Positions 38,448-43,290 of a stretch of DNA of 64,000 nucleotides are shown here, one piece after another. Made by a program: the position numbers and the translations under genes. Under the pieces are notes generated by a model. The model had not been told where the DNA came from and searched no databases. It was given only the letters and a program-made list of their open reading frames with translations. How positions within the stretch are numbered: the first letter of the stretch is position 1; every line of letters starts with the position of its first letter. The DNA is from Komagataeibacter saccharivorans (lineage in GTDB: Bacteria > Pseudomonadota > Alphaproteobacteria > Acetobacterales > Acetobacteraceae), in NCBI RefSeq assembly GCF_003207825.1, contig NZ_NKTY01000003.1, forward strand, positions 62,001 through 126,000, in the 5' to 3' direction.

Positions 38448-38912
38448 CTACTGCACGTAAATGCAGATCTGGGTTGCGCCTGTGGGGGAGACGCTGCGCG
38501 CGTCCAGTTCCGTCTGCGCGCTGCCAGCACCCGCATCCATGACCGCCTGCAGCACGGGCTGCCCGTCAGCGACCGTCCCCTGCCGCATGTCCGGCGGAGC
38601 GCCCGCGGCATTGGCGGGCACATCGACCACGACCGTAAACAGGGCATTGGGCTTGCGTGACAGCGCATCCATCACCGCAGCCCTGACAATGGGCTTCCAC
38701 TGCGTATCGGGCGTGCCCGCCGTGATCGTGACCAGCGCCGGGCTGTCTGGACCGGGTACGGGTGGTGGCGGCGTCTGGGGCAGTCTGGGCGGGTCCCCGG
38801 CATGACGGTCGAACGTTTTCTGGCTGACCAGCGTGCATCCGCCCATCACCGGCACGCACAGGGCGGCGAGCAGGATGGCACGGCAGGCAGGGCGGCGGAA
38901 CGGACGGGTCAT
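38448..38912 (-). CDS. Hypothetical lipoprotein
   Basis: The 154-residue product has a lipoprotein signal (AILLAALCVPVMGGC, lipobox MGGC). A Pro-rich linker (QTPPPPVPGPDSP) follows, then a small domain beginning ALVTITAGTPDTQWKPIV with predicted alternating strands and helices. No family was recognised; the domain could be an envelope adaptor. It is divergent from the transketolase-like gene and lies upstream of hemA in the same direction. Confidence 0.72.
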   Translation of the reverse strand: MTRPFRRPACRAILLAALCVPVMGGCTLVSQKTFDRHAGDPPRLPQTPPPPVPGPDSPALVTITAGTPDTQWKPIVRAAVMDALSRKPNALFTVVVDVPANAAGAPPDMRQGTVADGQPVLQAVMDAGAGSAQTELDARSVSPTGATQICIYVQ

Positions 38913-39046: not shown

Positions 39047-40957
39047 ATGCCAAAAGACCACGCCACCGCATCCCTGCCCACCGACCTGGCTGCTGCCACC
39101 GGCATGCCCGACCGGCTGGCGACGGCCATCCGCCATGCGGTCACCATTCATGAAACCGACCCCCGCTACGCCCCGCAGGCGCGGGTCATGGCCGGTTTCT
39201 GCGCCGTGTTATGGAGTCGCTTCCTGCGTTTCGATCCCGCCAGCCCCGAATGGCCGGACCGGGACCGCTTCATCGTTTCATCCCCGCCTTACCGCGTGCT
39301 GCCCGGCATCATGGCCGAACTGTCGGGACAGGCGCCCCGCCCGACCGACCCGAACGCACGGGCCAGTGAACGGCAGGCCTGCGGCCCCAACGGGCAGGGG
39401 CTGGGTGCTGCCATCGGCATGGCGCTGGCCGAACAGAAGCTGGCGGCACGTTTTGGCCGGTCGGTCGTCAACCATCGGGTATGGGCCGTTGGCTGCTGGA
39501 CGGAACTGTCCACCGGCGTAGCGCTGGAAAGTGCCGCACTGGCGGGGCAGCTTGGTCTTGACCGGGTGACGCTGGTGGTCGGGCTGTGGGAAAGCGAACG
39601 TCCGCAGGTGGAGGCCATCCTGCCGCGCTACAGCGCATCGGGGTGGTCGGTGCGCAAGGTGGACGCCTGCAACGCCGAACAGATCGCAGCCGCCATCGCA
39701 TCATCGCAGCGTACCCATAAACCATGCCTGATCGCATGCGTCGCCACACCTGAACCCGCGTCCTCCCCCGCCGTCATTGATGATCCGGGCCTGTGGGCAG
39801 GGGCGGCGCGACGGGGGGCAAGCGCACGGCGGTCATGGCTGCGCAGGCTGCTCAAGGACCGGCAGAAAACCGAATTCGAACGCATGGCGCACAACCAGCG
39901 CCCCGCCTTCTGGCAGCAGGACTGGCAGCGTTCATGGCGTGACGGAAGCGGAACAGGCCGCCCCGCACCACCCGTTGCCGCCCGGCGCGGGCTGGAGACA
40001 CTGCATGAACTGCTGCCCGAACTGACCTGTCTGCGTTCACGGCAGGGCATCATGGCCGATCTGTCCGTCCGCCGCGCCGGGGCCGAAACGGACCAGTCAT
40101 GCGGCACGCAGGTCAATGGCATGGCGGCACTGCTCAATGGCATCGCCATGCATGGCGGGCTGCTGGCCTGCGGGGCTTCGACCATCATCGCCGTGGACCG
40201 CATGCGCCCTGCCCTGCGCTACGCCGCAATGACGGACCAGCAGGTCATCTACCTGCTGACCGATGACGACCTGCACCGGGGCGAAAGCGCGGGCGGCTGG
40301 CAGCCCGTGGAACAGCTTGCCAGCCTGCGCGCCATGCCCAACATGATGGTCTTCCGCCCCGCCGATCACCGGGAGACCATGGAATGCATGGAACTGGCCC
40401 TGCGCCGCACGAACGGGCCGAGCCTGCTGACACTGGAATCCGCCATTTCATGCTCCGCACATGAACGTGAACAGTATGGACTGACCAATCTGTGCGCCCG
40501 TGGGGGTTATGTTGTGGCCGAAGCCGAACATGCCCGTCAGGTCACGCTGGTCGCCACCGGGCATGAGGTGATCCTGGCGCTGAAGGCGCGCAGACTGCTG
40601 AAGGAGGCGGGGATGGAGGCAGCCGTGGTGTCGCTTCCGTGCTGGGAACTGTTCGCCGCCCAAAAAATGACGTATCGTAATGCGGTGCTGGGGACAGCAC
40701 CCCGGATCGGGATAGAGGCCGCTTCGGGTTTTGGATGGGAACGATGGCTTGGCCCCGACGGGCTGTTCGTCGGTATTGACGGGTTCGGGGCCACCCCTGC
40801 CCCCGACCGGCCGGACAGCGCGGCGGACATCACGCCCGAACGGATCTGCCGCGACGCCATGCGGCTGGTGCGCCGCCTGTCCGAAGCCACGATGCAGACC
40901 GCGGGAGGAAACGGCGCGGCCCCGCCCGGAATGGCATCGGTCGATGCCTGTGTGTGA
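39047..40957 (+). CDS. Transketolase-like protein with a degraded active site (probable pseudoenzyme)
   Basis: The 636-residue product aligns along its whole length with transketolase: [73 protein letters not shown] and [11 protein letters not shown]. Key residues are lost. Mg/ThDP ligand Asp of GDG is Trp151 (CWT), the Asn ligand is Trp181, the catalytic Glu of REFGM is Val356 (QVNGM), the His of THQPVEQ is Trp418, and SGHPGAP and SNGHGS are replaced. It should not bind ThDP normally. The ATG at 39047 is used, with a weak ribosome site. gap follows after 31 bases and then pgk, so a shared operon is likely. Confidence 0.85.
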
Positions 40958-40988: not shown

Positions 40989-42011
40989 ATGGCTGTCAAA
41001 GTCGCAATAAACGGTTTCGGTCGCATCGGTCGCCTCGTGCTGCGCGGCATTATTGAAAGCGGCCGCACCGATGTGGTGCCTGTCGCCATCAATGACCTGG
41101 GCAGCGTGGCAGACAACGCACACCTGCTGTCCTATGACAGCGTGCACGGCCGCTTCCCCGCCGATGTGAAGGTGGAGGGCGACAAGATCCTCATCACCGC
41201 CAATGGCCGCACCTATGCCCCGATCACCGTCTCGGCCGAGGCCGACCCCATCCGGGTTCCCTTCCAGGGGGTGGACGTGGCGCTGGAATGCACCGGCCGC
41301 TTCACCGACAAGGAAAAGGCCGCGCAGCTCATTACCGCCGGCGCGCGCAAGGTGATCGTCTCCGCCCCTGCTTCGGGCGTGGATGCAACCATCGTTTACG
41401 GCGTGAACCAGGATGTCCTGACACCGGACATGACGGTTATCTCCAACGCATCATGCACCACCAACTGCCTTGCCCCCGTGGCGAAGGTGCTGGACGATAC
41501 GTTCGGCATCGAATGCGGCTACATGGTCACCATTCATTCCTACACCGGCGACCAGCGCACGGTTGATACCCTGCACAAGGACCTGCGCCGCGCACGCGGG
41601 GCGGCGCTGAACATGATCCCGACCTCCACCGGCGCCGCGCGCGCGGTGGGTCTGGTCCTGCCGCACCTGAAGGGCAAGCTTGATGGCACCGCCATCCGCG
41701 TTCCCACGCCCAACGTCTCGCTCGTCTCGCTCGACTTCGTGCCGACAAAGGCACCGGCCTCGGTTGAGGAAGTGAACGAAGCCCTGCGCAAGGCGTCCGA
41801 GTCCGGGCCGCTGAAGGGCATCCTGGCCTATAACACCGCGCCGCTGGTCAGCACGGACTTCAACCACTCCCCCGCCTCATCCACCTTTGACGCGACCCAG
41901 ACGGCCGTGATCGATGGCGGCAGGCTTGTGCGCATCTGCAGCTGGTATGACAACGAGTGGGGCTTCTCCAACCGCATGGCCGATACGGCTGCCGTATTCG
42001 GAGCATTGTAA
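40989..42011 (+). CDS. gap: Glyceraldehyde-3-phosphate dehydrogenase, type I
   Basis: GAPDH interconverts glyceraldehyde 3-phosphate and 1,3-bisphosphoglycerate. The 340-residue product has the nucleotide fold [13 protein letters not shown], the catalytic Cys in [23 protein letters not shown] and the C-terminal [13 protein letters not shown]. The ATG at 40989 is preceded by ACGGAGAAAATAAG. Its stop overlaps the pgk ATG by one base (TAATG), so the two are coupled. It follows the transketolase-like gene by 31 bases. Confidence 0.97.
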
Positions 42012-43234
42012 TGGCCACCATCGCCTTCAAGACGCTCGATCACCTTGATGCCGCCGGCAAGAAGGTGCTCCTGCGCGCTGACCTGAATGTTCCCGTGCGG
42101 GACAGGCAGATCACCGACGCCACGCGCATCCTGCGCCTGCTGCCCACCATACAGGAACTGGCGCAGAAGGGTGCAAAGGTGATTGTCGTCAGTCACTTCG
42201 ACCGCCCCAGGGGCCAGCGCGTTCCCGCCCTGTCGCTCGGTCCGATTGCCGATGCGCTGGGCGATGCGCTGGGCCGTCCGGTCACGTTCGTCGATGACTG
42301 CATCGGCCCCGCCGCGCAAAAGGCGGTGGACAGCATGCAGAACGGCGATGTGGTGGTTCTGGAAAACACCCGCTTCTATCCGGGTGAGGAACAGAACGAC
42401 CCCGAACTGGCCAAGGCCTTCGCCGCACTGGCGGACTGTTACGTCAACGATGCGTTTTCCGCGGCACACCGCGCCCATGCCTCGACCGAAGGGGTGGCCC
42501 GGCTTCTGCCCTCCTTCGCCGGACGGCTTATGGAGACGGAACTCAACGCGCTGAACATCGCGCTGGAAAACCCCGAGCGCCCCGTTGGCGCGATCGTGGG
42601 TGGTTCCAAGATCTCCACCAAGCTCGACCTGATCGGCAACCTGCTTGAAAAGGTGGACATGCTGATTATCGGTGGCGCGATGGCCAATACGTTCCTGGCC
42701 GCGCAGGGCGTGAATGTGGGGCGTTCGCTGCAGGAAGCGGACATGCACGACACTGCACGCGCGATCATGGCCAAGGCCCATGACAGGGGATGCGAGATCG
42801 TCCTGCCGGTCGATGCGGTGACCGCAACCGACTTTCAGGCCGATGTTCCCACCCGGATCGTGCCGGTCAGCGCCATCCCTGCCGATGCGATGATGCTGGA
42901 CGTGGGACCGGAGACGGTGAAGCTGATCTGCACGAAAATCGCGACGCTGAAGACGCTGGTCTGGAACGGCCCGCTGGGCGCGTTCGAGATCACGCCCTTC
43001 GATGCCGCGACCAACGCGGTTGCGCGTGAAGTGGCCAGACTGACCGATGCGGGCGTTCTGAAAAGCGTGGCCGGGGGTGGCGATACGGTCTCCGCCCTGC
43101 GTCATGCGGGGGTGGAGGGGCATATCTCCTACATCTCCAGCGCAGGCGGGGCCTTCCTTGAATGGCTGGAAGGCAAGACGCTGCCCGGTATCATGGCGCT
43201 GGAAAACATTTTCGAGCGTGCGCTGCCGATCTGA
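42011..43234 (+). CDS. pgk: Phosphoglycerate kinase
   Basis: PGK transfers phosphate from 1,3-bisphosphoglycerate to ADP. The 407-residue protein has [33 protein letters not shown], the hinge region [27 protein letters not shown] and the nucleotide site [14 protein letters not shown]. It starts inside the gap stop codon and is followed by a strong terminator, which ends the operon. Confidence 0.97.
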
Positions 43235-43256: not shown

Positions 43257-43290
43257 AAAAGGGACCATCGCAAGGTGGTCCCTTTTCTGT
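43257..43290. terminator. Rho-independent terminator after pgk
   Basis: AAAAGGGACCA / TGGTCCCTTTT forms an 11-bp perfect stem with an eight-base loop. It ends in a T-rich tract 22 bases after the pgk stop. The A tract on the other side lets it serve the convergent lysE-family gene too. Confidence 0.88.

Follow-up and report, generated by a model that had tools for sequence, protein, structure and literature searches.

We identified, in a 64,000-nucleotide window from Komagataeibacter saccharivorans (the whole stretch of DNA analyzed here), a full-length transketolase (TK) homologue that has lost the catalytic residues of the enzyme and evolves under purifying selection, the combination that characterizes a pseudoenzyme. 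This protein, referred to here as the pseudo-TK, is encoded at the head of a gap-pgk locus, and its relatives occur across the Acetobacteraceae in genomes that carry another TK. Our preferred interpretation, held tentatively and at slightly less than even confidence, is that the pseudo-TK is a true pseudoenzyme that arose more than once, in lineages where the presence of a second TK released the operon copy, and that has been kept for an inherited non-catalytic role, most likely as a TK-fold scaffold or as a regulator of central carbon enzymes. The features of the locus are collected in Table 1.

Table 1. Features of the pseudo-TK locus (window coordinates) and the basis of each assignment.
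Feature	Position	Strand	Basis or remark
Divergent small lipoprotein-like ORF	38448..38912	-	Named from sequence; similar-looking ORF beside the pseudo-TK in L219
Pseudo-TK, eroded TK homologue, 636 aa	39047..40957	+	ORF, Pfam, TIGR00232, homologues
W151 codon, replaces Mg/ThDP Asp of GDGD	39497..39499	+	Alignments
W181 codon, at or beside site of missing Mg-ligand Asn	39587..39589	+	Paired in 1 of 3 alignments
Linker helix between domains, basic (net +7), residues 250-283	39794..39895	+	Charge and conservation analysis
V356 codon, replaces cofactor-activating Glu of REH	40112..40114	+	Alignments
W418 codon, replaces catalytic His of THQP	40298..40300	+	Alignments
C-terminal TK domain, residues 480-605	40484..40861	+	Pfam, column conservation
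gap (glyceraldehyde-3-phosphate dehydrogenase)	40989..42011	+	31 bp after pseudo-TK; named from sequence
pgk (phosphoglycerate kinase)	42011..43234	+	One-base overlap with gap; named from sequence
Terminator-like hairpin after pgk	43257..43286	+	Pattern match only

The frame is stop-free over its 636 codons, as the first-pass annotation had read it, and the end-to-end relationship to TK claimed there agreed with Pfam, where Transketolase_N, Transket_pyr, and 2 C-domain models scored over cut-off in the usual TK order. Homology to TK in sequence and fold spans the PP, Pyr, and C domains, whereas the NCBIfam equivalog model TIGR00232 gave 285.5 bits against a cut-off of 682.25, which places the protein outside that equivalog family. 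The predicted structure (pLDDT 81.7, pTM 0.85) has a TK fold, with TM scores by query length of 0.74-0.78 against 50 listed solved structures, each a TK by its title or by a separate check. The active-site loop was poorly predicted in this model and in that of an intact control (residues 482-488), and the weak loop was dropped as evidence because the control was also weak there. The smallest share of canonical-invariant positions was lost in the C-terminal domain (15 of 52, residues 471-605).

We scored 17 catalytic or substrate sites in E. coli numbering, with the intact TK of the same genome as the reference, which shows the expected letter at all 17 by construction because it served as the reference. 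The window protein kept 1 of the 17, a glycine, in each of 3 alignments. The replacements of Asp by Trp151, of the activating Glu by Val356, and of the catalytic His by Trp418 noted at first pass were exact in the alignments; for the fourth, Asn to Trp181, the loss of the Asn held, with Trp181 occupying that column in 1 alignment and a gap in the other 2. We take W151, the W181 site, V356, and W418 to correspond to D155, N185, E411, and H473 of the E. coli enzyme. The Mg/ThDP ligands (the GDG Asp and the Asn) and the activating Glu are therefore all absent, as is the catalytic and substrate set of His, Arg, and Ser residues, so that on both counts the protein falls outside the active TKs. The His residues of both N-terminal motifs, already reported as lost, are absent from the alignments, and equivalents of R358, S385, H461, and R520 are missing as well. 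The TK segment bearing H258 is deleted (residues 233-250 of the window protein), and at the H258 position 53 of 56 acetic-acid-bacteria pseudo-TKs and 11 of 16 from other lineages show a gap. Sugar-phosphate binding at the old active site, one of the functions first offered for the protein, appears unlikely because the phosphate-binding residues are lost.

The pseudo-TK lies in line with gap and pgk at the spacing and orientation given in Table 1, as had been described. Pattern scans, a weak form of evidence, found no terminator between the pseudo-TK and gap and no promoter-like site between the pseudo-TK and gap/pgk, and the terminator scan gave 3 matches in the region against 3.2 expected in shuffles. 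The hairpin after pgk, with 13 pairs and a T-rich tail, is possibly the operon terminator. Among 80 named loci, which are the best of 250 ranked by similarity to the eroded form and not a random sample, gap adjoins the TK in 79 (it was not found in L099) and pgk lies within the fetched stretch in 76; wherever gap was identified (136 loci, duplicate loci of the same genome included), it shares its strand with the adjoining TK. Among 9 loci representing other families of the class, 8 likewise have the TK next to gap. The arrangement is thus an old one, with the eroded gene being the operon TK itself rather than a late insertion.

Selection on the pseudo-TK was estimated from 21 Komagataeibacter pairs, in which its median omega was 0.21 (NG86) and 0.10 (YN00), while in the same pairs the intact TK gave 0.08/0.05 (NG86/YN00), gap gave 0.05/0.02, and the 146-148 codons available of pgk gave 0.12/0.07. 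Gluconacetobacter had an omega (NG86) of 0.24, and Acetobacter, at a median dS of 1.2, one of 0.20; 7 further pairs, 4 of them outside the acetic-acid-bacteria clade, gave 0.14-0.37 (NG86; dS 0.75-2.0), with gap at 0.03-0.17 in the 6 of them that could be computed. Omega of the pseudo-TK exceeds that of the intact TK by a factor of 2.2-2.6, so constraint is relaxed over part of its length; the protein is constrained, less tightly than the enzyme. No stop was found within the matched frame in any of the 80 named loci, of which 27 are intact or nearly so, and frameshifts, stops, and an omega near 1, the hallmarks of a pseudogene, are absent from the pseudo-TK. The earlier expectation that selection keeps the frame is thus borne out by the omega of about 0.1-0.2 in Komagataeibacter and by the absence of stops, and homologues that were mostly frameshifted, as in a decaying pseudogene, were not what we found. 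Taken with the second TK described below, these results uphold the designation as a pseudoenzyme, with the loss of activity itself predicted from the residues.

Loss has fallen preferentially on the catalytic sites. The 33 intact operon TKs have 283 invariant columns (at least 95%), and the 56 acetic-acid-bacteria pseudo-TKs keep 126 of these (at least 80%), with 1 of 16 catalytic columns kept versus 125 of 267 other invariant columns (Fisher p=0.0012). The 16 pseudo-TKs of other lineages keep 165 columns (at least 60%), and 111 are common to both sets versus 73.5 expected (partial rows L044, L170, and L182 dropped); fold stability alone could explain much of this overlap.

All 7 sampled Komagataeibacter genomes, host included, carry the pseudo-TK, with 79-83% identity in the 6 others, and it was also identified in Novacetimonas, Gluconacetobacter, Acetobacter, Endobacter, Lichenicoccus, Tanticharoenia, and further Acetobacteraceae. 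The best 80 of 250 loci kept 16-17 of the 17 sites in 26 cases, 14 in 1 case, and 10 or fewer in 53 cases (including L044, which is cut by a contig end). The residue losses are more than chance, being common to the genus and to related genera. A class-wide search of 190 genomes (3 of the same family) gave a best score outside the family of 619 bits versus 1010 for the window protein, most rows outside the family being scored by similarity and not by catalytic residues.

Active-site loss at the operon TK probably arose several times over. On a tree of gap and pgk from the 62 of 96 loci with both genes complete, the eroded label needs 7 changes, 5 of them forced by well-supported branches; the window row, from a locus with partial pgk, is absent from this tree, and other Komagataeibacter stand in for it. 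Forcing together the 36 eroded rows, a group defined from residues and not from the tree, costs 252 log-likelihood units (p-AU 0.0005), and a single ancestral erosion was rejected on this tree. The TK tree of 91 rows needs 3 changes, 2 of them forced, and groups most eroded rows, although long branches meet there and the program flagged a risk of false joins. The gap+pgk tree, for its part, could be misled if gap-pgk had moved between lineages, and both trees are quick ones; more than one independent erosion was observed. Mapped in this way, as the first-pass annotation had proposed, the loss is recurrent on either tree.

A separate intact TK is encoded on another contig of the same Komagataeibacter genome, which supplies the second, intact tkt on which the first reading of this protein had depended. 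Another full-length TK is present in all 46 residue-checked eroded genomes, a set that leaves out G261, which is cut by a contig end, as well as G179 and G233, whose assignment relied on similarity. A single TK was found in 8 of 10 residue-checked intact genomes (G047, G063, G216, G005, G203, G230, G021, and G067), and G017 and G094 carry an intact operon TK plus a second TK without erosion; the TKs of G230, G021, G067, and G094 are the same as those of the named loci L094, L110, L074, and L086, respectively. When 27 additional or repeat genomes with an operon-type TK were examined, 26 had exactly 1 TK (E<=1e-100); for this set G178, G039, and G165 were set aside and most operon TKs were taken without a residue check. 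Erosion of the operon copy going with the presence of a spare TK is well supported by these counts.

Spare TKs fall into 2 groups, class B, to which that of the host belongs, and A', with about 44-46% and 53-62% identity to intact operon TKs, respectively, and those checked keep 15-17 of the 17 sites (11 class B, including the reference, and 9 A'). Six A' TKs (L146, L148, L152, L154, L156, and L179) are much alike across different genera, which suggests horizontal transfer, and the spare TK was probably often gained in this way. In 3 Komagataeibacter genomes we observed an additional class B TK that shares 81% identity with that of the host (G060:C1:276508-278625, G184:C63:8333-10453, and G222:C12:51216-53333). 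Genus g92 contains several stages, with 1 TK keeping 17/17 sites in G230, 14/17 beside further TKs in G151, and a second TK in both G092 (10/17) and G194 (4/17). The operon TK of G151 (L089) carries H258R, F434Y, and H473Y and possibly represents erosion in its first steps. Mainly from G017, G094, and genus g92, we infer that outside this genus, too, the spare came first and erosion followed.

The mechanism that we propose would start from the catalytic tkt of an old tkt-gap-pgk operon, of which the pseudo-TK would be the positional descendant. A second TK, present in several Acetobacteraceae lineages, could take over catalysis, and the operon copy would then lose ThDP, Mg, and substrate binding with its fold still under purifying selection. 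The operon TK would already have had a second, non-catalytic role, which may now be what selection keeps; we infer its inheritance from the constraint and from the recurrence of erosion. The protein would presumably form a dimer with the TK fold and serve, together with GapA and Pgk from the same operon, as a scaffold or regulator; this role, suggested by gene linkage and preserved surfaces, is the weakest step.

The chief rival keeps the pseudoenzyme and changes its partner. By analogy with human TKTL1, the pseudo-TK might heterodimerize with the intact TK and titrate or reshape its activity, which we consider rather unlikely. Each TK active site is built by 2 subunits, and the best conserved windows of the pseudo-TK are residues 113-149, 419-455, and 527-581 (C domain), the first 2 of which we take to lie at the TK dimer interface. 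Its co-occurrence with another TK in every residue-checked eroded genome fits such a partnership and is not independent evidence for it, because another TK is needed once the operon copy dies. There is a precedent in that human TKTL1, in the excerpts of 2 reports, heterodimerizes with TKT (PMC6555833; PMC3485151). The partner TKs would, however, come from 2 groups, class B and A', and among the 122 positions that are strongly conserved in acetic-acid-bacteria pseudo-TKs, 47 have the character of gap-linked TKs rather than of class B.

The same 122 positions bear on the idea that the TK fold was reused, with a rebuilt pocket, as a new catalyst or ligand-binding protein. A Trp at the His473 position in 47 of 56 acetic-acid-bacteria pseudo-TKs and R385 in at least 95% of that set would suit a new pocket, but when the 122 are compared with intact gap-linked TKs, only 21 prove to be new or variable, and most of the old catalytic columns vary in the set, some even within Komagataeibacter; we regard this idea as improbable.

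An RNA- or DNA-binding regulator, for example one that autoregulates the operon through the basic linker helix, is less probable still. Mean net charge of the linker is highest in the 72 eroded TKs (+7.5), followed by 33 intact gap-linked TKs (+5.8), 9 A' (+3.2), and 11 class B (+0.4), and the linker is the slowest region in Komagataeibacter (omega 0.066). However, it is not the slowest in Gluconacetobacter or Acetobacter, its windows rank 50 to 63 of 176 in the eroded set, and 2 of 9 other-family TKs also have strongly basic linkers (+7 and +9). The basic linker is a trait of Acetobacteraceae gap-linked TKs, whether intact or eroded, that class B lacks and that was kept through erosion. As the single retained feature it was set aside, having held only in part in view of its rates in other genera and the rank of its windows.

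The gene is dispensable and not essential everywhere. In all 15 examined genomes whose sole full-length TK lies elsewhere, gap-pgk is present, and no TK-like remnant was found in the 5.6-6.4 kb fetched upstream of gap. In addition, G117, from the genus code holding Acetobacter pasteurianus, has an intact pseudo-TK ORF (L219:6071-7951) on a contig other than that of gap-pgk (separated loci L219 and L218), beside lipoprotein-like and 5-aminolevulinate-synthase-like ORFs as in the window, these names being drawn from sequence. An aconitase-like ORF, also named from sequence, lies downstream of this copy on the same strand. Because the copy is away from gap-pgk, polarity on gap cannot explain it, and its unlinked persistence weakens a strict link to GapA/Pgk. 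With regard to a putative link to gluconeogenesis or the TCA cycle, PPDK scored over cut-off in 20 of 23 genomes retaining the gene versus 4 of 15 losing it, and sdhA in 22 of 23 versus 7 of 15 (G219, where sdhA spans contigs and falls short of the cut-off, was scored as having it), a comparison that includes only 2 supported independent pairs.

These genomes also bear on the explanation that the ORF is kept only since stops would be polar on, or uncouple, gap-pgk translation, with a junk protein or a slow pseudogene as the product. The tight co-directional order and the lack of intervening signals in the pattern scans noted above would suit it, but omega well under 1, the stop-free frames, the 126 intact-invariant columns kept, the G117 copy, and the 15 clean absences with gap-pgk intact do not. 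Simple decay and retention for operon polarity were rejected on these grounds, and we see little chance of either. Residual, altered ThDP chemistry in less eroded members (for example L029 and L111), with full loss later, is the least probable of all: L028 and L029 keep the GDGD, REH, and HDS motifs, but the window protein keeps a single site, and the N185 and H473 residues are absent in all 30 members of the first residue table.

The scaffold or regulator reading extends to the family as a whole, where we hold it a shade less firmly than for the pseudo-TK itself. Gap-linked TKs of the Acetobacteraceae may have an ancestral second job that outlives catalysis, the 2 jobs having been split repeatedly (at least 5 times on the gap+pgk tree) by a spare TK followed by site loss, and the dead TKs may organize or regulate lower glycolysis. 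Pseudoenzymes are usually explained singly, and here the same conversion seems to be repeated. Because intact, incipient, and advanced stages occur inside 1 genus, the idea of a hidden second job is directly testable, and the hosts concerned produce vinegar and bacterial cellulose.

Genome papers on related bacteria, as far as their excerpts go, list 4 and 2 tkt genes as plain transketolases (PMC5908849 and PMC3751514, respectively), and 1 gene in each list is probably a dead TK. Annotation and metabolic models may be affected where dead TKs are listed as transketolases. No paper on a bacterial pseudo-transketolase was among the matches listed in our literature searches, which mostly left subscription journals outside; pseudoenzymes, including 1 TK-like pseudoenzyme, are known already, and the present case is a bacterial dead TK at the gap-pgk locus.

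Compared with transketolase (EC 2.2.1.1), the pseudo-TK is alike in fold, domain order, homology, and operon place with gap and pgk, and differs in having lost the Mg/ThDP ligands, the activating Glu, and the catalytic and substrate residues, and in scoring far under the TIGR00232 cut-off. E. coli TktA, which reportedly binds MarR, offers an earlier example of a bacterial TK with a non-catalytic role, although, unlike the pseudo-TK, TktA stays active. Human TKTL1, described in the reports cited above as binding TKT and as virtually inactive alone (PMC6555833; PMC3485151), resembles the pseudo-TK as a TK-fold paralogue that stands beside an active TK and has lost part of its N-terminal half, and the deletion in the N-terminal part of TKTL1 is partly mirrored by the loss of the H258 segment in pseudo-TKs. 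The 2 proteins have separate origins, however, and the pseudo-TK is bacterial, with nearly all of its catalytic residues replaced, apparently several times, at the gap-pgk operon.
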